Shown here: positions 3,116 to 41,338 of the stretch, one piece after another
How positions within the stretch are numbered: the stretch's first letter is position 1
Layout: every line of letters begins with the position of its first letter
Assembly (NCBI RefSeq): GCF_030378205.1
Contig: NZ_CP127385.1
Span: forward strand, 3,698,001 to 3,762,000
Length of the DNA: 64,000 nucleotides
Reading direction: 5' to 3'
Origin: Bradyrhizobium sp. NP1
Lineage (GTDB): Bacteria; Pseudomonadota; Alphaproteobacteria; Rhizobiales; Xanthobacteraceae
Notes under the pieces: model-generated
The model's database searches: none
Told to the model about the DNA's origin: nothing
What the model saw: only the letters and a program-made list of their open reading frames with translations
Made by a program: the position numbers and the translations under genes

Positions 3116-3189
3116 CCGGGAAGCGGCACCAGAATCATGGATTTTCCAGTGCCCTTTGCTTCCCGACGTTCGTGAAAGAGGTTGCCGCA

Positions 3190-4467
3190 ATGACGCACGA
3201 CCTTCGGGAAGCCGGCCCCGCACCCTTCGCGCCATTCGAATGGATGCTTTCGGCGCGCTATCTGCGTGCGCGCCGGCGCGAGGGATTCATCTCGGTCATC
3301 GCCGGCTTTTCCTTCCTCGGCATCATGCTCGGCGTCGCCACGCTGATCATCGTGATGGCTGTCATGAACGGCTTCCGCAAGGAGCTCCTGGACAAGATCC
3401 TCGGCCTCAACGGGCACGTGCTGGTGCAGCCGCTGGAGTCACCGCTGACCGACTGGAAGGACGTCGCAGACCGGATCAGCCAGGTGCAGGGCGTGCGGCT
3501 CGCCGCACCGGTGGTCGACGGCCAGGCGTTGGCGTCCTCGCCGTTCAACGCCTCAGGCGTGTTCGTGCGCGGCATTCGCGCCGACGACCTGAACAACCTC
3601 ACTTCCATTGCCAAGAACATCAAGCAGGGCTCGATCGAGAACTTCGACGAGGGGCAGGGGGTCGCGATCGGCCGCAGGCTCGCCGATCAGCTCTCGCTGC
3701 ATGCCGGCGACAGCGTCACGCTGGTGGCCCCGCGCGGCGCGGTGACGCCGATGGGCACCACGCCGCGCATCAAGCCCTACAAGGTGGTCGCTGTGTTCGA
3801 GATCGGCATGTCCGAATACGACGCCGGCTTCGTGTTCATGCCGCTGCCGGAGGCGCAGGCCTATTTCAACCGCAACAACGACGTCACCGCGATCGAGGTG
3901 TTCACCAACAACCCCGACAGGATCGACGCTTTCAAGAAAGCCATTACCGAGGTGGCCGGCCGGCCGGTCTTTCTCGTCGACTGGAGGCAGCGCAACTCGA
4001 CCTTCTTCAACGCGCTCCAGGTCGAGCGCAACGTGATGTTCCTGATCCTGACCATGATCGTCCTGGTCGCCGCGCTGAACATCATCTCCGGCCTGATCAT
4101 GCTGGTGAAGGACAAGGGCAGCGACATCGCCGTGCTGCGCACGATGGGCGCCTCGCAGGGCTCGATCATGCGGATCTTCCTGATCACGGGTGCTGCGATC
4201 GGCGTGGTCGGCACGCTGACCGGCTTCTTCGTCGGGCTGATCATCTGCCTGAATGTCGAGTCGATCCGGCAGTTCCTGTCCTGGCTCACCAACACCGAGC
4301 TGTTCTCGCCAGAACTCTACTTCCTGTCGCGCCTGCCGGCCGAGGTCGATTTTGGCGAGACCACCGCGGTCGTCATCATGGCGCTGACGCTGTCCTTCCT
4401 GGCGACGCTCTATCCGTCGTGGCGCGCCGCGCGCCTCGATCCGGTCGAAGCGCTTCGGTACGAGTGA
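3190..4467 (+). CDS. lolC: Lipoprotein-releasing ABC transporter, permease subunit LolC/LolE
   Basis: Inner-membrane subunit of the Lol machine, which extracts mature lipoproteins from the inner membrane for delivery to the outer membrane. The 425-residue product has the MacB/FtsX-like layout. There is one membrane segment near residues 30-55 ([31 protein letters not shown]), a large periplasmic domain of about 220 residues, then three C-terminal membrane segments ([20 protein letters not shown], a second around [18 protein letters not shown], and a third near the end). The conserved [18 protein letters not shown] loop couples to the ATPase. The ATG at 3190 has GAGG eight bases upstream; an in-frame GTG at 3172 is the alternative. 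The ATPase gene lolD starts 7 bases downstream. Alphaproteobacteria usually have one such permease acting as a homodimer, so LolC versus LolE naming is a convention. Confidence 0.94.
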
Positions 4468-4474
4468 GGGGCTG

Positions 4475-5173
4475 ATGGCAGAGGGGGCGGAAGATGCACC
4501 GGTCATCTATCTTCATGAGATCAAGCGCCAGTACGTGCAGGGCGAGGCGCCGCTGATCATCCTGGACGGCGCCAAGCTCGCGCTGTGGGCCGGACAGTCG
4601 GTGGCGCTGGTCGCGCCCTCGGGCTCCGGCAAGTCGACGCTGCTGCACATCGCGGGCCTGCTCGAGACGCCCGACGAGGGCGAGGTCTATGTCGCGGGCG
4701 CGCCGACCTCGCAATTGTCGGACATGGAGCGCACCCAGATCCGCCGCACCGAGATCGGCTTCGTCTACCAGTCGCATCGGCTGTTGCCGGAATTCTCGGC
4801 GCTGGAAAACGTCATGCTGCCGCAGATGATCCGCGGCCTGAAGCGCTCCGAGACCATCAAGCGCTCGACGGAGCTGCTGGGCTATCTCGGACTCGGCGAG
4901 CGGCTCAAGCATCGGCCGGCGGAGCTTTCGGGCGGCGAGCAGCAGCGGGTCGCGATTGCGCGCGCGGTCGCCAATGCGCCCCGGGCGCTGCTTGCGGACG
5001 AGCCGACCGGCAATCTCGATCCGCACACCGCCGATCACGTGTTCCAGGCGCTGATGCAGCTCGTCAAGGCGACCCAGGTCGCGATGCTGATCGCGACCCA
5101 CAACATGGAGCTCGCCAGCCGGATGGACCGCCGGGTGTCGCTGGAAAACGGCCAGGTCGTCGAGCTGGATTAA
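4475..5173 (+). CDS. lolD: Lipoprotein-releasing ABC transporter, ATP-binding protein LolD
   Basis: Cytoplasmic ATPase that powers lipoprotein release together with the LolC/E permease encoded immediately upstream. The 232-residue sequence carries Walker A ([16 protein letters not shown], near residues 45-60), the Q-loop region ([17 protein letters not shown]), the signature [14 protein letters not shown], Walker B ([12 protein letters not shown]) and the switch histidine in IATHNMELA. It belongs to the MacB/LolD/FtsE subgroup by its [11 protein letters not shown] and PTGNLD segments. Cotranscription with lolC is expected from the 7-base spacing. A hairpin about 50 bases after the stop may end the transcript. 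Confidence 0.96.
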
Positions 5174-7493: not shown

Positions 7494-7768
7494 GAGAATC
7501 TCCTGGGACAAAGCTTTGACGGCACCTCAACCGCCCCGGAGGTCTTGCGTCAACTCACGTTCATGCGGGGCCGCGGGCGCTCAAGAGCGTGGAAGGGGCG
7601 GGTCGCGGGGCGCGGGCCGCGAAAGGCCGTGGTTTCCACGGACGTCCGGATCGTCGTTCTCGCCGATGAAACAGGGCTGCGGATGCGGGAGAAAAGACAC
7701 TCCCGTACCGTACCGCGACCCGATTTAACCATGAACGCGGGCGCCTCCGAAGCCCGTCTCAGCCTCGC

Positions 7769-7796
7769 TTGACTCTTGGAACAAAATAAGAACAAT
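7769..7796 (+). promoter_or_regulatory. Candidate promoter for the 32-residue SOS peptide gene
   Basis: TTGACT (7769-7774) as -35, a 16-base spacer, then AACAAT (7791-7796) as -10, four of six matches to TATAAT. Both LexA boxes overlap the spacer, the -10 and the expected start point, an arrangement suited to repression. Confidence 0.5.
7779..7793 (-). promoter_or_regulatory. LexA box 1 (reverse orientation)
   Basis: GAAC-N7-GAAC, the complement of the alphaproteobacterial LexA consensus GTTC-N7-GTTC. It lies 37 bases upstream of the small ORF at 7830 and inside its candidate promoter. Confidence 0.7.
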
Positions 7797-7811
7797 GTTC
7801 TCTCTATGTTC
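7797..7811 (+). promoter_or_regulatory. LexA box 2 (forward orientation)
   Basis: Exact GTTC-N7-GTTC, the alphaproteobacterial SOS operator. It is separated from the reverse box by three bases and ends 18 bases before the ATG at 7830. The same pattern occurs upstream of lexA in this window at 41324-41338, which supports the reading. Confidence 0.8.
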
Positions 7812-7829
7812 TAGTCCGAGGAGGCGTTC

Positions 7830-7928
7830 ATGTTGAGGGTTTTCGTGGAAGAGGCGGCTGCACTGACTTCGCTGGCGCTGTTCGTCGGGATGATCGCGGT
7901 CTGGGCCCAGCTCATCACCCAGCTCTGA
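7830..7928 (+). CDS. 32-residue single-span membrane peptide, LexA-controlled
   Basis: Short gene encoding a peptide that starts MLRVFVEEAAALTSL and ends WAQLITQL. Residues 9-29 form one hydrophobic segment (AAALTSLALFVGMIAVWAQLI), so an inner-membrane peptide is expected. The start is well supported: GAGGAGG at 7818-7824, five bases before the ATG. Two LexA boxes lie immediately upstream, so induction by DNA damage is expected. The layout resembles Caulobacter SidA, a 29-residue SOS-induced membrane peptide that blocks cell division through FtsW/FtsN. That is an analogy of size, topology and control, not demonstrated homology. dnaE begins 167 bases downstream. I believe similar short ORFs occur in other Bradyrhizobium genomes, but could not check. 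Confidence 0.72.
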   Translation: MLRVFVEEAAALTSLALFVGMIAVWAQLITQL

Positions 7929-8095
7929 TCAGGGCGCCCGGCCGGGGCTGGGGAAAAGCCGGAGGAGGCGCGCCAGGGGCGCCCCTCGCGTGGACACCCA
8001 GGCTACAAGGCGGCAGCATTGCGGGTGCGAGTCGGGTTCCTCCGGCAGCTTCCGCAGCCTAGAGCCCGCCCACCTTCCAGTCATTCAGCGTGCCC

Positions 8096-11000
8096 ATGTC
8101 CAGCGCCGGTTTCGTCCATCTCCACGTCCATTCCGCCTATTCGCTGCTGAAGGGCTCGATCAAGATCGCCAAGCTCGGCGAGCTCGCGAAGGCCGACCGC
8201 CAGCCGGCGCTGGCGCTCACCGACACCGACAACATGTTCGGGGCGCTGGAATTCTCCGACAAGATGGCCGGCTACGGCATCCAGCCGATCGTCGGCTGCG
8301 AGCTCGCGATCGATTTCGGCGACCAGGACCCGAACGCGAGGAATGCGCATTCAGCTGCGCCGGCCCACGTCGTGCTGCTGGCGGCGCGCGAGATCGGCTA
8401 CCGCAATCTGATGCGCTTGAACTCGCGGGCGTTCCTGGAAACGCCGGTGCATCAGGCGCCGCACATCAAGGTCGATTGGCTGAAAGACAATGCGGAGGGG
8501 CTGATCGCCCTGACCGGCGGCCCGGACGGGCCGCTCGCGCTGGCGCTGCGCGCCGGCCATGACGCGCTGGCCGCCGCGCGCTGCGAGCAGCTCGCCGGGG
8601 TGTTCGGAGACCGCCTCTATATCGAATTGCAGCGCCACGGGCTGGACAAGGAGCGCCGCGTCGAGGGCGGGCTGATCGATCTCGCCTATGCCAGGGGCCT
8701 GCCGCTGGTCGCGACCAACGAACCCTATTTCGCCAGCAACGACGATTATGAAGCGCATGATGCGCTGCTCTGCATCGCCGGCGGCCATCTGATCGCCGAG
8801 ACCGAGCGCACCCAGCTCACCACCGACCACCGCTTCAAGACCCGGGCCGAGATGGCCGTGCTGTTCGCCGACATCCCGGAGGCGCTCGCGTCCACGATCG
8901 AGATTGCCGAGCGTTGCGCTTACCGGCCGATGACCCGCAAGCCGATCCTGCCGCGCTTCACGGTCGGCGCAGGCGCAAGCGCCGCCGACGCGCAGGCCGA
9001 GGAGGCGGCCGAGCTGCGCCGCCAGGCCGAGGAGGGGCTCGCGCGGCGGTTGAAGGTGCACGGCCTGTCGCCTTCGACCACGGAGGAGGACTACAGCAAG
9101 CGGCTCGCCTTCGAGCTCGACGTCATCACCCGCATGAACTATGCGGGCTACTTCCTGATCGTTTCCGACTTCATCAAATGGGCGAAGGCGCACGGCATTC
9201 CGGTCGGTCCGGGCCGCGGCTCCGGCGCCGGCTCGCTGGTCGCCTGGTCGCTCACCATCACCGATCTCGATCCGATTCGTTTCGGGCTGCTGTTCGAGCG
9301 CTTCCTCAATCCCGAGCGCGTCTCGATGCCGGACTTCGACATCGACTTCTGCCAGGACCGGCGCGGCGAGGTGATTGAATATGTTCAGCAGCGCTACGGC
9401 CGCGACCAGGTCGCCCAGATCATCACCTTCGGCACGCTGCAGGCGCGCGGCGTGCTGCGCGACGTCGGCCGCGTGCTGCAGATGCCCTATGGCCAGGTCG
9501 ACAAGCTGACCAAACTGGTGCCGCAGAATCCGGCAGCGCCGGTGACGCTCGCGGCCGCGATTGCCAGCGAGCCGAAGCTGCAGGCTTTCCGCGACGAGGA
9601 TCCCGTGGTGGCGCGGGCCTTCGACATCGCGCAGCGGCTCGAAGGCCTGACGCGGCACGCCTCCACCCATGCCGCCGGCATCGTGATCGGTGACCGACCC
9701 TTGAGCGAGCTCGTGCCGCTCTACCGCGATCCGAAGTCCGACATGCCGGTGACCCAGTTCAACATGAAATGGGTCGAGCCGGCGGGCCTCGTCAAATTCG
9801 ACTTCCTCGGGCTGAAGACGCTCACCGTGCTCGATGTCGCGGTGAAGCTGTTGAAGCAGCGCGACGTCGACGTCGAGCTTGCGACCCTGCCGATCGACGA
9901 CGCGCCGAGCTACCAGATGCTGGCGCGGGGCGATGTGGTCGGCGTGTTCCAGGTGGAAAGCCAGGGCATGCGGCGGGCGCTGATCGACATGCGCCCGGAC
10001 CGCTTCGAGGACATCATCGCGCTGGTTGCGCTCTATCGCCCCGGCCCGATGGCCAACATCCCGACCTATTGCGCGCGCAAGCACGGCGACGAGGAGCCGG
10101 AATACCTGCATCCGATCCTGGAGCCGATCCTCAAGGAGACCTTCGGCGTCATCATCTACCAGGAGCAGGTGATGCAGATCGCGCAGCAGATGGCGGGCTA
10201 CTCGCTCGGCCAGGCCGACCTGCTGCGCCGCGCGATGGGCAAGAAGATCCGCGCCGAGATGGAGAAGCAGCGCGAGGTTTTCGTCGCCGGCTCGGTGAAG
10301 AACGGCGTGCCGAAGGGGCAGGCCGACACCATCTTCGAGCTTCTCGCCAAGTTCGCCGACTACGGCTTCAACAAGAGCCATGCCGCGGCCTACGCGCTGG
10401 TGTCCTACCACACCGCCTACATGAAGGCGCATTATCCGGTGGAGTTCATCGCGGCGTCGATGACGCTCGACCTCAACAACACCGACAAGCTCAGCGAATT
10501 CAGGGCCGAGGCGCAGCGGCTCGGCATCAAGGTTGAAGCCCCGAACATCAACCGGTCCGGCGCCACCTTCGAGGTCGGCGACAACACCATCTACTATGCG
10601 CTTGCCGCGCTGAAGGGGGTGGGCTTGCAGGCGGTCGAGCAGATCGTGGAGGCGCGCAAGAGTAAGGGCGCCTTCACTTCGCTCGCGGACTTCGCCGCCC
10701 GCGTCAATCCGCGCGCCATCAACAAGCGCATCATCGAGAGCCTCGCCGCCGCCGGCGCGTTCGACACGCTCGAGCCCAACCGCGCCCGGGTCTTCGCAGG
10801 GGCGGATGCGGTCCTCGCCGCCTGCCAGCGCGCGCATGAGGCCGCGACCATCGGCCAGAACGACATGTTCGGCAATGCGGCTGATGCCCCGACCATCATG
10901 CTGCCGCAGATCGAGCCGTGGCTGCCGGCCGAGCGGCTGCGCCGGGAATATGACGCGATCGGCTTCTTCCTTTCAGGTCATCCGCTCGACGATTACGCGA

Positions 11001-11617
11001 CCGTGCTGAAGCGGCTGCGCGTGCAGTCCTGGGCGGAATTTTCCCGCGCGGTGAAGACCGGCGTCACCGCGGGAAAGGTGGCCGCGACCGTGGTGTCGCG
11101 GATGGAGCGGCGCACCAAGACCGGCAACAAGATGGGCATCATCGGCCTGTCCGATCCGACCGGCCATTTCGAGGCGGTGTTGTTCTCGGAGGGGCTCGCG
11201 CAGTACCGCGAGCTGCTGGAGCCGGGCGCCGCCGTGCTGTTGCAGCTCGGCGCCGAATTGCAGGGCGAGGACATCCGCGCCCGCGTGCTGCATGCCGAGC
11301 CGCTGGACGATGCCGCCGCCAAGACCCAGAAGGGCCTGCGCATCTTCCTGCGCGACACCAAGCCGCTGGACTCGATCGCCAGGCGGCTCAACATGCCGGA
11401 GAGCCAGCCGGCGGCCGGAGCCGCTGCCGCTCGCGGAACGCCGGCCAAGCCGGCAGCGCCGCCGCCTGCGGGAGCCGACGGCGAGGTGTCGCTCGTGCTC
11501 ATGCTGGATCTCGAGACCGAGATCGAGATGAAGCTGCCGGGTCGCTTCAAGGTCTCGCCGCAGATCGCCGGCGCGCTGAAGGCGGTCTCGGGCGTCGTCG
11601 ACGTGCAGACGCTCTGA
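8096..11617 (+). CDS. dnaE: DNA polymerase III subunit alpha (replicative DnaE1)
   Basis: Catalytic subunit of the replicative DNA polymerase, about 1173 residues. The N-terminal PHP domain begins FVHLHVHSAYSLLKGS and keeps its metal-binding histidines. The palm holds GPGRGSGAGSLVAW near residue 375 and the catalytic MPDFDIDFCQDRRGEV near 415. Fingers segments include YRPGPMANIPTYCARKHG and FNKSHAAAYALVSYHTAYMKAHYP. A helix-hairpin-helix and an OB-fold lie toward the C-terminus. The length and PHP region fit DnaE1 rather than the shorter SOS polymerase DnaE2. ATG 8096 is used; an in-frame GTG at 8090 is also possible, and neither has a strong Shine-Dalgarno sequence. The LexA boxes 285 or more bases upstream belong to the short ORF at 7830, though read-through into dnaE cannot be excluded. 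Confidence 0.95.
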   Translation: MSSAGFVHLHVHSAYSLLKGSIKIAKLGELAKADRQPALALTDTDNMFGALEFSDKMAGYGIQPIVGCELAIDFGDQDPNARNAHSAAPAHVVLLAAREIGYRNLMRLNSRAFLETPVHQAPHIKVDWLKDNAEGLIALTGGPDGPLALALRAGHDALAAARCEQLAGVFGDRLYIELQRHGLDKERRVEGGLIDLAYARGLPLVATNEPYFASNDDYEAHDALLCIAGGHLIAETERTQLTTDHRFKTRAEMAVLFADIPEALASTIEIAERCAYRPMTRKPILPRFTVGAGASAADAQAEEAAELRRQAEEGLARRLKVHGLSPSTTEEDYSKRLAFELDVITRMNYAGYFLIVSDFIKWAKAHGIPVGPGRGSGAGSLVAWSLTITDLDPIRFGLLFERFLNPERVSMPDFDIDFCQDRRGEVIEYVQQRYGRDQVAQIITFGTLQARGVLRDVGRVLQMPYGQVDKLTKLVPQNPAAPVTLAAAIASEPKLQAFRDEDPVVARAFDIAQRLEGLTRHASTHAAGIVIGDRPLSELVPLYRDPKSDMPVTQFNMKWVEPAGLVKFDFLGLKTLTVLDVAVKLLKQRDVDVELATLPIDDAPSYQMLARGDVVGVFQVESQGMRRALIDMRPDRFEDIIALVALYRPGPMANIPTYCARKHGDEEPEYLHPILEPILKETFGVIIYQEQVMQIAQQMAGYSLGQADLLRRAMGKKIRAEMEKQREVFVAGSVKNGVPKGQADTIFELLAKFADYGFNKSHAAAYALVSYHTAYMKAHYPVEFIAASMTLDLNNTDKLSEFRAEAQRLGIKVEAPNINRSGATFEVGDNTIYYALAALKGVGLQAVEQIVEARKSKGAFTSLADFAARVNPRAINKRIIESLAAAGAFDTLEPNRARVFAGADAVLAACQRAHEAATIGQNDMFGNAADAPTIMLPQIEPWLPAERLRREYDAIGFFLSGHPLDDYATVLKRLRVQSWAEFSRAVKTGVTAGKVAATVVSRMERRTKTGNKMGIIGLSDPTGHFEAVLFSEGLAQYRELLEPGAAVLLQLGAELQGEDIRARVLHAEPLDDAAAKTQKGLRIFLRDTKPLDSIARRLNMPESQPAAGAAAARGTPAKPAAPPPAGADGEVSLVLMLDLETEIEMKLPGRFKVSPQIAGALKAVSGVVDVQTL

Positions 11618-11796
11618 TGCCCTGAACTCCAGGCGGGCTGGCGCGTTATTCCCGGGCGCCTCGCCAGCGCGCCGGTCTTTTGCCGGGCTGCCATGCGCCC
11701 TGCCTTGTTGGCAACGTATTTCGTTCAAAGGATGTTCAGACAGCACGGCTCTGAATGCCCAAAACCCGTGTTCCCAAGCAACAAGGCGGAACGCCC

Positions 11797-14334
11797 ATGC
11801 GACTGGTCAAGATCCTCTCATTCTGTTCCGTTTGTCTGCTCGTGCTTTCGGGATCGCTGAGCCCGGCCGCCGCCCAGCAACAGGAAAAGCGCATCGCGCT
11901 CGTCGTTGGCAACGGCGCCTATGCCAAGTCGCCGCTCGCGACCGCGGCCAATGACGCCGGCCTGATCGCCCAGAGCTTGCAGGCCGCTGGCTTCGACGTG
12001 GTCGGGGCGCGCGACCTCGACGCCGATTCGCTGCGCAAGACGTTCCGCGACTTCATGCAGAAAGTGGAGAGCGATCCCGCCAACACGGTCGCGATGGTGT
12101 ATCTCGCCGGTTACGGCGTGCAGCTCGCCGGCGAGAACTACTTCATTCCGGTCGATGCCACTGTTAACCGCGACACCGATATTCCGATCGAGGGGCTGCG
12201 GGTCAGCGACTACACGCGCGAATTCGCCTCGGCGCCTTTGAAAGCCAGTGTCTTCGTGCTCGATGCCGCGCGGCAGCAGCCCTTCATCGAAGGCGGAAAC
12301 TCGATCGCGAGCGGCCTTGCCCTCGTTGATCCCGCGCCGAACTCGCTGATCGCGTTCAACGCCGCGCCCGGCACCGTCGCGCCGACGGAGCCTGGTCCCT
12401 ACGGCGCCTATGCCCAAGCGCTGGCTGAAATGATCCGCACCGGCGGATTGTCGCTGCCGGAGGTTTTCGATCGCGTGCGCCTGCGTGTCAGCGAGAACAC
12501 CAAGGGCGCGCAAATCCCCTGGGATGCCCAGAAGATCCAGGCGCAGTTCGCCTTCTTCGATCGCGCGCCGGACGCACCGCCCGTGCAGGGCACGCCCGAT
12601 CAGGTCGCCGCGATCCGCGAGCGGCCGATGCGCGATCTCGGCGCGCAGGAGGCGTTCACCGCGGCCCTCGCACGCGACACGATGCAGGGCTACGAGGATT
12701 TTCTCGTCGCCTATCCCGGCGATCCCCTGGCAAAGCGGGTGAGGGCGATCGTCGCCGCGCGCCGTGAGGCCATTACGTGGCGCCGCACCTATCTCGCCGA
12801 TACGCCGGACGCCTATTGGTCCTATTTGCGGCGCTATCCGCGCGGGCCCCATGCGTGGGATGCGCGGCGACGCCTGACGATCCTGTCCGCGGCGCTGGAG
12901 CCACCGCCGTCATTTGCGATGATCGACTACGACCTGCCGCCGCCGCCGCCGGACGAGATCGTCTATGTCGACCGTCCGGTGCTCTATTTCGGCGATCCGG
13001 ATTTCGACTTCGCGCCGCCGCCCCCGCCGCCGGTCTTCTTCCTGCCGCCGCCGCCGCCGGATTTCGTGGTGCTGACGCCGCCATACGCGCCGGTCGGGTT
13101 GTTCATCCTGCCGCAGCCGGTTTTCGTGCCGATTCCGGTGTTCTGCCAGCCGCCGGTCTATGTCGCGCCGCCGCCGAACAACATCATCTACAACAACATC
13201 CACAACACGACGATCATCAACAACACCATCAACGTTGCGCCGACGACGCAGAACAATATCGTGACCGCTGCCGCCAACAATCAGACCGGCGCGGCGCCGC
13301 CGATATCGAAGTCGCTGCAGATGAAAGCCGCGGCGATCAACTCGGGCCAGGCGCCGGTACCCCAGCACGCGCTCATCAACACGAACGCAAAGACCTCGAC
13401 CAAGGCGGTCTTTCCGACCAATGCGACGTCCACGACCGCCACCACGACGCCGCCGCCGCAGGTAGCCGTGACGAAGCCGGGAACCGCGACCCAGCAGGGA
13501 ATGGGCACCCGGCCTGCCATCGGGACCCAACAGGGAACGGCGAACCTCAAGCCAGGCAATGCTCTGCCTGGCAGCCCGAGCGGAACGGCGCTTCCTGTTC
13601 AGGCCGGCAAGGGCAATGAGGCGAGCAAGGGCGGCGCGCCGGGGACGACCGGCCCCGGCGGATTGACGCCCAACACGAAGCTGGGCACGACGCAGCCGGG
13701 TGCTCCGGGGACGGGTTCGAATACGGCGAACCCCAACCGGCCCGGGGGAACGTCGACAACGCCTGGCGTCAACGCCAAGTCCGATGCCAAGTCCGGCGTC
13801 TCGCCGCCGGCCAATGCCAAGCTCACGCCTCAGACGACGACGCCGACCACCACGTCGCCCACGGCGGCGCACTCGAACGCTCAGGAGCGCGCCAACACGG
13901 TCAATCCGGCGAATACGGCCAATACGGCCCCGGCAAAGCCCGGCGAGACCAAGTTGACGCCGCCTTCGCAGTCGCCTTCGCAGTCGCACGCCAATGTGCA
14001 GCCGGCCCAGCGCGAGAAGCTGACGCCTCCGGTGCAATCGAGGCCGGTGACCCCGGCAATGCGGCCGGCCGCCCAGCCGCAGATCAGGCCTGAGGCGAGG
14101 CGGGTCGCTCCGCCACCGCCTCCGCCGCCCCCCGTTCGCCAGCCCCAGGTGACCCGGGTCGCCCCGCCGCCCCCGCCGCCACGGGCGGCCGCGCCGCCGC
14201 CCCCGCCGCGTCCGGCGCCCCAGATCGCGCGGCCGGCGCCACCTCCGCCGCCCCGGCCGGCGCCACCTCCGCCGCCGCGCCCGGCCGCGCCGGCTGCCGC
14301 GAAGAAATGCCCGCCGAACGTCGCCAAATGCTAG
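11797..14334 (+). CDS. Secreted caspase-like (peptidase C14) protein with both catalytic residues replaced
   Basis: Exported protein of 845 residues: signal peptide (1-26, ending SPAAA), then a caspase p20-like domain at about 31-270. The fold motifs are plain (KRIALVVGNGAYA, NDAGLIAQSLQAAGFDVV, VYLAGYGVQLAGENYFIPVDA, SVFVLDAARQQPF). The catalytic histidine of the usual AGHG motif is Tyr106, and the cysteine of the usual DACR motif is Ala158. The protein is therefore predicted to be a pseudo-protease. A short repeat-like region follows (YLADTPDAYWSYLRRYPRG), then a long low-complexity tail: proline-rich, then Asn/Thr-rich (IIYNNIHNTTIINN), then PPPPP blocks to a terminal AAKKCPPNVAKC. The start has AAGGCGGA upstream; an earlier in-frame ATG at 11755 would disrupt the signal peptide. 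A perfect-stem terminator follows the gene. Confidence 0.85.
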   Translation: MRLVKILSFCSVCLLVLSGSLSPAAAQQQEKRIALVVGNGAYAKSPLATAANDAGLIAQSLQAAGFDVVGARDLDADSLRKTFRDFMQKVESDPANTVAMVYLAGYGVQLAGENYFIPVDATVNRDTDIPIEGLRVSDYTREFASAPLKASVFVLDAARQQPFIEGGNSIASGLALVDPAPNSLIAFNAAPGTVAPTEPGPYGAYAQALAEMIRTGGLSLPEVFDRVRLRVSENTKGAQIPWDAQKIQAQFAFFDRAPDAPPVQGTPDQVAAIRERPMRDLGAQEAFTAALARDTMQGYEDFLVAYPGDPLAKRVRAIVAARREAITWRRTYLADTPDAYWSYLRRYPRGPHAWDARRRLTILSAALEPPPSFAMIDYDLPPPPPDEIVYVDRPVLYFGDPDFDFAPPPPPPVFFLPPPPPDFVVLTPPYAPVGLFILPQPVFVPIPVFCQPPVYVAPPPNNIIYNNIHNTTIINNTINVAPTTQNNIVTAAANNQTGAAPPISKSLQMKAAAINSGQAPVPQHALINTNAKTSTKAVFPTNATSTTATTTPPPQVAVTKPGTATQQGMGTRPAIGTQQGTANLKPGNALPGSPSGTALPVQAGKGNEASKGGAPGTTGPGGLTPNTKLGTTQPGAPGTGSNTANPNRPGGTSTTPGVNAKSDAKSGVSPPANAKLTPQTTTPTTTSPTAAHSNAQERANTVNPANTANTAPAKPGETKLTPPSQSPSQSHANVQPAQREKLTPPVQSRPVTPAMRPAAQPQIRPEARRVAPPPPPPPPVRQPQVTRVAPPPPPPRAAAPPPPPRPAPQIARPAPPPPPRPAPPPPPRPAAPAAAKKCPPNVAKC

Positions 14335-20900: not shown

Positions 20901-22052
20901 ATGTCCGAGTTTTTTCTGCATAGTTTCAATGCCTTGAGCCATGGGCTCATTGGCTACGTGGTTCCGTTCCTGTTCGTCCTGACGATCGTCGTGTTCTTCC
21001 ACGAACTCGGCCATTTCCTGGTCGCGCGCTGGGCTGGCGTCAGGGTGTTGACGTTCTCGCTGGGCTTTGGCCCGGAACTCATCGGTTTCAACGATCGGCA
21101 CGGCACCCGCTGGAAGATTTCGGCGGTGCCGCTTGGCGGGTACGTCAAGTTCTTTGGCGATGACACCGAGGCCTCGACGCCATCGCCGGAATTGCTTGCC
21201 AACATGAGCGCTGAAGAGCGGGCGGGCAGCTTCCACCATAAGCGGGTCGGTGCGCGGGCGGCGATCGTCGCGGCGGGACCGATTGCGAATTTCCTGCTCG
21301 CGATTGTCATTTTCGCTGCGCTCTTCACCTTTTTCGGCAAGCCGAGCACCTCGGCGCGGGTCGACAAGGTCGAGGCAGGCAGCGCCGCCTCGGCCGCCGG
21401 CTTCCAGGTCGGCGACATCGTGCTCGCCATCGACGGCACCAAGATCGAAAGCTTCTCCGACATGCAGCGGATCGTCGGCGTGCGCGCCGGCGAGAAGCTG
21501 AACTTCACGGTCAAGCGCGGCACCGAGACGGTTCAGTTGCAGGGGACGCCGGAGCAGCGCGAGATGAAGGATCCCTTCGGCAACGTGCACCGGCTCGGCG
21601 TGCTCGGCATCACGCGGCAGACCGCGGCCGGCGACGTCGTCACCGAGCGCGTCGACCCCGCGACCGCGTTATGGCTGGGCGTGAAGGAAACCTGGTTCGT
21701 GATCGAGCGTACGCTCGCCTATATCGGCGGGGTTTTCACCGGGCGCGAAGCCGCCGATCAGGTCGGCGGGCCGCTCCGGATCGCCCAGATCTCGGGCCAG
21801 GTGGCGACCATCGGAATCGCCGCCCTGGTGCATCTTGCGGCCGTGCTTTCGGTATCGATCGGGCTCCTCAACCTGTTCCCGGTACCGCTGCTGGATGGCG
21901 GTCACCTTTTGTTCTATGGGGTAGAGGCCATCCGAGGCCGTCCGCTGTCGGAGCGGGCGCAGGAGATGGGCTTCCGAATCGGCTTGGGGTTGGTGCTGAT
22001 GTTGATGGTGTTTGCAACCTACAACGACATCCTGCATCTCGCGGCATCTTGA
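20901..22052 (+). CDS. rseP: RIP metalloprotease RseP (site-2 protease)
   Basis: Inner-membrane zinc protease that cleaves membrane-embedded anti-sigma factors or signal peptides. The 383-residue product carries HELGH near residue 36 in the first membrane segment (VVFFHELGHFLVARWAG). It then has the membrane-reentrant VPLGGYVKFFGDD, one PDZ domain (about residues 125-205; VEAGSAASAAGFQVGDIVLAIDG) and the second catalytic motif LNLFPVPLLDGGHLLF near residue 328. One PDZ domain, where E. coli RseP has two, is common in alphaproteobacteria. ATG 20901 has GAGGAG upstream. bamA follows, linking envelope stress control to outer-membrane assembly. Confidence 0.95.
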   Translation: MSEFFLHSFNALSHGLIGYVVPFLFVLTIVVFFHELGHFLVARWAGVRVLTFSLGFGPELIGFNDRHGTRWKISAVPLGGYVKFFGDDTEASTPSPELLANMSAEERAGSFHHKRVGARAAIVAAGPIANFLLAIVIFAALFTFFGKPSTSARVDKVEAGSAASAAGFQVGDIVLAIDGTKIESFSDMQRIVGVRAGEKLNFTVKRGTETVQLQGTPEQREMKDPFGNVHRLGVLGITRQTAAGDVVTERVDPATALWLGVKETWFVIERTLAYIGGVFTGREAADQVGGPLRIAQISGQVATIGIAALVHLAAVLSVSIGLLNLFPVPLLDGGHLLFYGVEAIRGRPLSERAQEMGFRIGLGLVLMLMVFATYNDILHLAAS

Positions 22053-40504: not shown

Positions 40505-41206
40505 TCAGTACTTCCGATACAGCCCGATCAGCTTGCCCTGGATCTTGACGCGGTTCGGCGGGAGTATCCGGACCTCGTAGGCCGTGTTGGCCGGCTCCAG
40601 CGCAATGGAAGCACCTCGGCGGCGAAAACGTTTCAGCGTCGCTTCCTCGTCATCGATCAGCGCGACGACGATGTCGCCGGTGTCGGCACTCTCGTTGCGC
40701 TGGATCAAAGCCATGTCGCCGTCGAGGATACCGGCATCGACCATGGAGTCGCCGCGCACCTCGAGCGCGTAGTGCTCACCGGAGCCGAGCATGTCGGGCG
40801 GCACGCTGATGGTGTGGCTGCGGGTCTGCAGTGCCTCGATCGGTGTGCCGGCGGCGATGCGGCCCATGACGGGCACCGCGACCGGACGCTCACCGTCATC
40901 GGCGGTGGAGCTGGCGCTGCGGCCCTTGCCGAGATTGCCTTCGATGACGCTCGGGGTGAAGCCGCGGCGGCTGCCGCCGCCGCTTGCGGAAAGCTCGGGC
41001 AGCTTGATCACCTCGATGGCGCGGGCGCGGTTGGGCAGGCGACGGATGAAGCCGCGTTCTTCCAGTGCGGTGATGAGGCGGTGGATGCCGGATTTCGAGC
41101 GCAGGTCGAGTGCGTCCTTCATCTCGTCGAACGAGGGCGGGACGCCGGCCTCTTTCAGCCGTTCATTGATGAAACGCAGAAGTTCGTACTGTTTGCGCGT
41201 GAGCAT
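40505..41206 (-). CDS. lexA: SOS repressor LexA
   Basis: Represses DNA-damage genes and self-cleaves when activated by RecA filaments. The 233-residue protein has the N-terminal winged helix ([39 protein letters not shown]). The S24 peptidase domain has the cleavage site Ala119-Gly120 in GRIAAGTP, catalytic Ser154 in [11 protein letters not shown] and Lys192 in EATLKRF. ATG 41206 gives the standard MLTRKQ start; a TTG three codons upstream is in frame. A GTTC-N7-GTTC box lies 117 bases upstream, indicating autoregulation. moeA is the upstream neighbour on the same strand. Confidence 0.97.
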
Positions 41207-41323: not shown

Positions 41324-41338
41324 GTTCGATATGTGTTC
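41324..41338 (+). promoter_or_regulatory. LexA box upstream of lexA
   Basis: Exact GTTC-N7-GTTC, the alphaproteobacterial SOS operator, in the lexA-moeA intergenic region 117 bases from the lexA start. It matches the box at 7797-7811. Confidence 0.8.

Follow-up and report, generated by a model that had tools for sequence, protein, structure and literature searches.

The small membrane proteins that are induced by DNA damage and inhibit cell division include YneA of Bacillus, SosA of Staphylococcus and ChiZ of Mycobacterium, of which YneA and ChiZ contain a LysM domain. SosA is described as lacking this domain (PMC13396833). AlphaFold 3 models presented in the same source, not of high confidence, dock ChiZ, SosA and the Caulobacter peptide SidA on FtsW, with SidA opposite the others on FtsW TM7 (PMC13396833).

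The closest described system is SidA of Caulobacter, a 29-residue peptide with one hydrophobic span whose gene carries LexA-type boxes and is followed by dnaE. SidA is reported to bind FtsW and FtsN in two-hybrid assays, and to be suppressed by ftsW or ftsI mutations that are thought to favour the active divisome (PMC4211646). Caulobacter cells without lexA are described as expressing sidA constitutively and filamenting (PMC12700426), and a table in PMC9578287 gives the Caulobacter LexA operator as GTTC-N7-GTTC. A second Caulobacter protein, DidA, is likewise a small, single-span, DNA-damage-induced division inhibitor, but is set apart by its description as a 71-residue, SOS-independent FtsN binder (PMC4211646). 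Our searches of the openly licensed literature, which excludes the original SidA paper, turned up no description of SidA orthologs in organisms other than Caulobacter.

Here we describe a 32-codon open reading frame (ORF) in Bradyrhizobium sp. NP1 that we consider to be, in all likelihood, a Bradyrhizobium-type sidA ortholog, encoding a presumably LexA-repressed and damage-induced peptide that would hold the FtsW-centred septal complex inactive. At the level of sequence, support is available for the conservation and selection of the ORF, for its operator architecture, for its position beside dnaE and for a profile link to SidA; from these features we infer LexA binding, induction, membrane insertion, contact with FtsW and division arrest. 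The interesting part is the broad distribution of such genes, in which the peptide appears as a diverged member that is missed by NCBI's SidA model.

A putative SOS-controlled membrane peptide upstream of dnaE

The locus lies in a window of 64,000 nucleotides, by which we mean the whole stretch of DNA that was analysed. Its relevant features are as follows.

3172..5173, plus strand: lolC- and lolD-type genes; the copies in relatives were recognised by tblastn with the window sequences
7769..7774, plus strand: -35 hexamer TTGACT, read directly from the sequence
7779..7793, minus strand: LexA-type box 1, GAACAAAATAAGAAC on the plus strand and GTTCTTATTTTGTTC on the minus strand
7791..7796, plus strand: -10 hexamer AACAAT, after a 16-base spacer, between the boxes and overlapping them
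7797..7811, plus strand: LexA-type box 2, GTTCTCTCTATGTTC, starting 18 bp past the start of box 1
7818..7824, plus strand: ribosome-binding site GAGGAGG, 5 bases 5' of the ATG
7830..7928, plus strand: ORF of the SidA-like membrane peptide, 32 aa, MLRVFVEEAAALTSLALFVGMIAVWAQLITQL; ATG at 7830, stop codon ending at 7928
8090..11617, plus strand: dnaE (DNA polymerase III alpha), start GTG at 8090 or ATG at 8096, the usual downstream neighbour
40505..41206, minus strand: lexA, the sole gene of the genome to match LexA_DNA_bind at E <= 0.001
41324..41338, no strand assigned: box GTTCGATATGTGTTC, some 118 bp 5' of the lexA start codon

Direct reading bore out the arrangement given in the preliminary description, in which facing boxes overlap a TTGACT/AACAAT promoter and are followed by GAGGAGG and a 32-codon ORF with a single hydrophobic span. 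That span comprises residues 11-29, where the best 19-residue Kyte-Doolittle mean is 2.0, and the peptide thus has the size and single-span topology of the SidA type.

Since one box lies in the promoter spacer and the other starts directly behind the -10 hexamer, tight repression is expected, and the double box should accordingly keep the promoter firmly closed if LexA occupies it. The lexA gene also falls inside the window, at a distance of about 33 kb from the peptide, and the box that precedes it probably serves autoregulation. A further box, GAACATATTGCGAAC, belongs to recA and starts 108 bp before the first possible ATG of that gene, such that the peptide ORF, lexA and recA of this genome have the box type in common.

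Conservation and selection within the genus

When the peptide was used to search 60 relatives, the ORF was recovered from all 36 same-genus genomes, the window genome included, and one clear match (genome G054, E 2.9e-7) was obtained outside the genus. In all 30 of the same-genus loci that were read, own genome counted, the ORF is 32 codons long, the two boxes keep their 18-bp spacing and dnaE follows, with the DnaE N-terminal motif 176-305 bp past the ORF; the two GTTC-N7-GTTC boxes over the promoter, putative LexA operators, are accordingly constant among the loci read. The promoter hexamers vary little among these loci: the -35 element is TTGACT in 28, TTGACC in one and TTGACG in one, and the -10 element is AACAAT in 27 and AACATT in three.

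Computed from raw proportions over the 30 same-genus sequences, pN/pS is 0.154 in the frame of the ORF; the values are 1.5 and 6.8 for the remaining forward frames and 0.88, 0.31 and 7.4 on the antisense strand. Variable sites at the three codon positions of the ORF number 14, 3 and 28. The ORF frame is under purifying selection. Conservation of the frame in relatives, which the preliminary description had left to be checked, is hence borne out by the 36 genomes and the pN/pS value, and the search it had proposed upstream of dnaE in other Nitrobacteraceae finds the gene conserved there and, as set out below, far beyond that family. A BLASTN search of the region against plasmids gave no match.

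Relation to SidA

The NCBIfam model of SidA, NF033228, has 29 positions and a cut-off of 35 bits. The window protein does not match it, and the 32-mer found no family among the Pfam, NCBIfam and PHROGs profiles; none of the weak matches in these three collections was named YneA or SosA. Applied to 385 Alphaproteobacteria, the SidA model placed a single genome, G683, over its cut-off; in 14 control genomes it yielded four matches, Caulobacter vibrioides among them, with one of the four over cut-off. Two alignments served as profiles, a narrow one of 12 sequences (A1) and a broader one (A2), whose 34 rows were picked from profile matches.

A2, which was built without G683, matches that genome at G683:C1:95940, the same base as the SidA model, with E 1.2e-3 per genome; a match of this strength is weak alone and could arise by chance among 385 genomes, and it carries weight because it falls on the SidA locus. 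There, the gene order is lolC, lolD, box, SidA peptide and dnaE. When the A2 and SidA profiles were aligned with each other by hhalign, they gave 93.5%, E 2.4e-7 and a score of 29.1 over 22 columns only. Shuffling the columns of A2 200 times gave scores of 14.6 at best, and reversing A2 gave 8.4, a control by which the apparent link to SidA is strengthened. In scans of the 34 single members of A2, SidA was reached by one (E 0.072) and unrelated families by a few, at similar E.

Scores with the SidA model are graded across the family. Over the cut-off are Caulobacter S45 (60.2 bits), Phenylobacterium deserti (58.0), Caulobacter C13 (55.9) and G683 (44.3), all of which share with the window ORF a place upstream of dnaE; below it are Brevundimonas (23.9), an Ancylobacter peptide (13.2) and the SidA-like peptides of G606 and G393, two genomes of the family of G683 (21.4 and 18.1). 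Among the matches listed, the peptide is just upstream of dnaE in all seven named Caulobacteraceae, namely two Caulobacter, two Phenylobacterium, two Brevundimonas and one further record; an exact box is present in four of these, and one-mismatch boxes in the other three, both Caulobacter included, which counts against the link to SidA. By these scores, NCBI's SidA model captures part of the family and not all of it.

Profile similarity, shared neighbours and a shared operator type together suggest one gene from a common ancestor, and the window ORF most probably represents a diverged ortholog of SidA rather than an independent invention. Given the lack of a match to NF033228, we place it outside that equivalog model and regard it as putatively orthologous to SidA through descent. 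The proposal of the preliminary description, a SidA counterpart possibly of independent origin, is thereby retained in its first part, which is favoured by the conserved membrane peptide, the LexA-type boxes and the profile and dnaE-side link, and set aside in its second, against which the profile similarity and the shared place both speak. The two proteins nevertheless differ in several respects. The tryptophan near the C-terminus, which is invariant in A2 and conserved in its Hyphomicrobiales rows, is missing from this position in Caulobacteraceae, and the contact surface may therefore differ. The operators differ as well, as the boxes of the window genus face each other over the promoter, whereas G606 and G393 have two boxes upstream of dnaE in the same orientation.

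Distribution among Hyphomicrobiales and other Alphaproteobacteria

At E <= 1, a level that admits chance matches, A1 matched 187 of the 297 genomes of the order, and a class-wide search with A1 found nothing convincing outside it, for which reason the broader profile was needed. Profile searches indicate that single-span peptides of 27-38 aa adjoin dnaE in many families of Hyphomicrobiales. We examined 42 loci chosen from the profile matches, 41 from the order and one from the class: dnaE is downstream in 38, a box lies within 250 bp in 34, and LolD is encoded within the stretch read in 27, LolD being farther from the peptide in the window genome. One of the 42 loci (L092) sits at a contig end. 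The A2 peptides, whose start codons are our choice, follow the pattern D/E, A-A-L, A/S-L, F, W, with F and W invariant in the 34 rows, an invariance that is partly a selection effect because the rows were chosen from profile matches. Six candidates (L033, L118, L125, L137, L140 and L149) were rejected as weak profile matches that look like chance and have no dnaE nearby; L118 and L125 belong to the 42 loci examined.

A survey anchored on DnaE obtained a DnaE match in 127 of 130 genomes of the order, the remaining three giving none. In 69 of the 127, the 1200 bp upstream of dnaE contain a box, vs five for the reversed motif. Thirty of the 127 came from the earlier profile-match loci, from which A2 had partly been built; in the 97 genomes fetched by DnaE alone, the box is upstream of dnaE in 42, vs four for the reversed motif. 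The peptide profile reaches at least 5 bits, a threshold chosen after the scores were seen, in 62 of the 127 genomes (55 of these with a box) and in 33 of the 97 (28 with a box). On the reverse strand of the survey DNA, which served as the control, one outlier attained 22.0 bits and the remainder 4.6 or less. A further 14 survey genomes have a box and no peptide at 5 bits; in two of the 14, G114 and G149, a similar short peptide is found just below 5 bits, and three others of the 14, G056, G101 and G137, have the facing double box described below. In about half of the surveyed Hyphomicrobiales, no recognisable copy of the peptide was found upstream of dnaE; the copies missing there may have been lost, moved or become too diverged.

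Beyond the order and the Caulobacteraceae, similar peptides are located upstream of dnaE in six genomes, with a box in G334, G339, G472, G566 and G650 and no exact box in G466. We also inspected 80 named loci, which are the best matches listed to Caulobacteraceae DnaE and hence not a random sample, some with short upstream stretches. A box occurs within 700 bp upstream of dnaE in 30 of these, vs one for the reversed motif, and a peptide of at least 5 bits in 28, of which 25 have a box. Among the matches listed, the peptide is present in records named Maricaulis, Hellea, Rhodobiaceae, PS1 clade and Sneathiella, as well as Ancylobacter, Devosia, Stappia, Tardiphaga and Bradyrhizobium; the records listed for Rhodobacteraceae, Acetobacteraceae, Azospirillum, Skermanella, Hyphomicrobium and Rhizobium Q54 showed none.

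If the genes are what they appear to be, a checkpoint studied in one genus becomes widely shared, its sidA-type gene can be sought at a known position in many Hyphomicrobiales and in some further Alphaproteobacteria, and rhizobia and many of their relatives become directly testable for an SOS division checkpoint. Aligning SidA peptides that are so different from one another would also reveal residues important for the inhibition of FtsW.

Several loci depart from the common arrangement. Three (L330 in G137, L336 in G056 and L352 in G101) have a facing double box like that of the genus, 18 bp apart and upstream of dnaE, with no peptide recognised by the profile beside it; they may encode a SidA that has diverged strongly, or another SOS product. 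In four loci of one family, f44 (L103, L107, L114 and L131), dnaE is preceded by the ORF of a SidA-like peptide (27-31 aa) and no exact GTTC-N7-GTTC box lies within 250 bp; the operator of this family may differ. In G047 (L032, 3955-4839), two ORFs of 97 and 196 aa separate lolD from the SidA-like gene.

Proposed mode of action and alternative readings

In the model that we favour, LexA bound to the two promoter-covering operators would silence the ORF until DNA damage brings about RecA-stimulated cleavage of LexA and the promoter is released. The 32-residue peptide would then accumulate as a single-span inner-membrane protein and, as in Caulobacter, bind the FtsW-centred septal wall-synthesis complex, holding it inactive until repair is done. 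By analogy with Caulobacter, where AlphaFold 3 models, again not of high confidence, put SidA on FtsW TM7 (PMC13396833), the division block would most likely operate via FtsW. A single FTSW_RODA_SPOVE match at E <= 0.001 is present in the window genome, so a target for the peptide exists.

The serious rival to this model concerns the expression of dnaE. The ORF might be a leader or upstream ORF that renders dnaE SOS-responsive, either by read-through from the LexA-controlled promoter or by translational coupling, as could be argued from the fact that ORF and dnaE are on the same strand and adjacent in many relatives. Within 7500-8200, moreover, the TTGACT/AACAAT promoter is the sole promoter-like match, in a type of scan that is weak, and no terminator-like site was found, which is weak evidence with 0.6 such sites expected by chance. 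We nonetheless judge a leader function unlikely, given that selection acts on the peptide sequence, which is itself conserved as a profile across families, that 609 bp in G054 and 1610 bp in G119 separate the ORF from the start of the DnaE match, and that Caulobacter SidA is described as working as a protein (PMC4211646). In G096, furthermore, the copy (L122) is beside lolC/D, the 6-kb stretch read contains no dnaE and the DnaE match lies on another contig, such that the two genes need not stay paired. Roles in division inhibition and in dnaE expression can coexist, and we entertain, tentatively and with more doubt than belief, the idea that SidA is no peculiarity of Caulobacter but an old alphaproteobacterial checkpoint gene beside dnaE, where one LexA-controlled transcript would both stop the septum and supply the replicative polymerase. 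On that reading, sidA would have been kept beside dnaE because the two are co-expressed, and division checkpoint and replisome recovery would form one unit.

Two further explanations bear on the peptide itself. Its small size, hydrophobicity and SOS-type control would also suit another kind of SOS membrane effector, for example a depolarising peptide that slows growth in the manner of TisB, which is described as LexA-controlled and as depolarising the inner membrane (PMC8145889), and not a divisome inhibitor at all; we hold this to be improbable, as both the locus and the profile similarity are shared with SidA, a divisome inhibitor. That a chance ORF happens to be situated beside chance boxes could be entertained on the grounds that the single box pattern has no genome-wide enrichment, but it is contradicted by the conservation, the selection and the composite operator, and we give it almost no credence. 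A SidA-type division inhibitor under putative LexA control is thus the reading that we retain for the window ORF.

Occurrence of the box pattern

Taken singly, the GTTC-N7-GTTC pattern occurs five times in the window, vs a mean of 1.67 in shuffles, of which four in 100 reach five, and 160 times in the whole genome, vs 170 for the same pattern read backwards. The single pattern says little alone, and the raw genome counts, which indicate no genome-wide enrichment, are uninformative. The composite operator GAACN7GAAC-N3-GTTCN7GTTC occurs once in the window and never in the shuffles, and its spacing is identical in all 30 same-genus loci.

Another box in the window, GTTCAAAGGATGTTC at 11723-11737, is directly 5' of an ORF of 859 aa (11755-14334), which resembles a gene for a caspase-domain protein. 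No box of this type was found in the approximately 450-520 bp downstream of dnaE in each of three named Bradyrhizobium records and one Tardiphaga record, and the window box is thus either a chance occurrence or lineage-specific. A further exact GTTC-N7-GTTC match, GTTCCGTTCCTGTTC, is located at 20961-20975 of the window.
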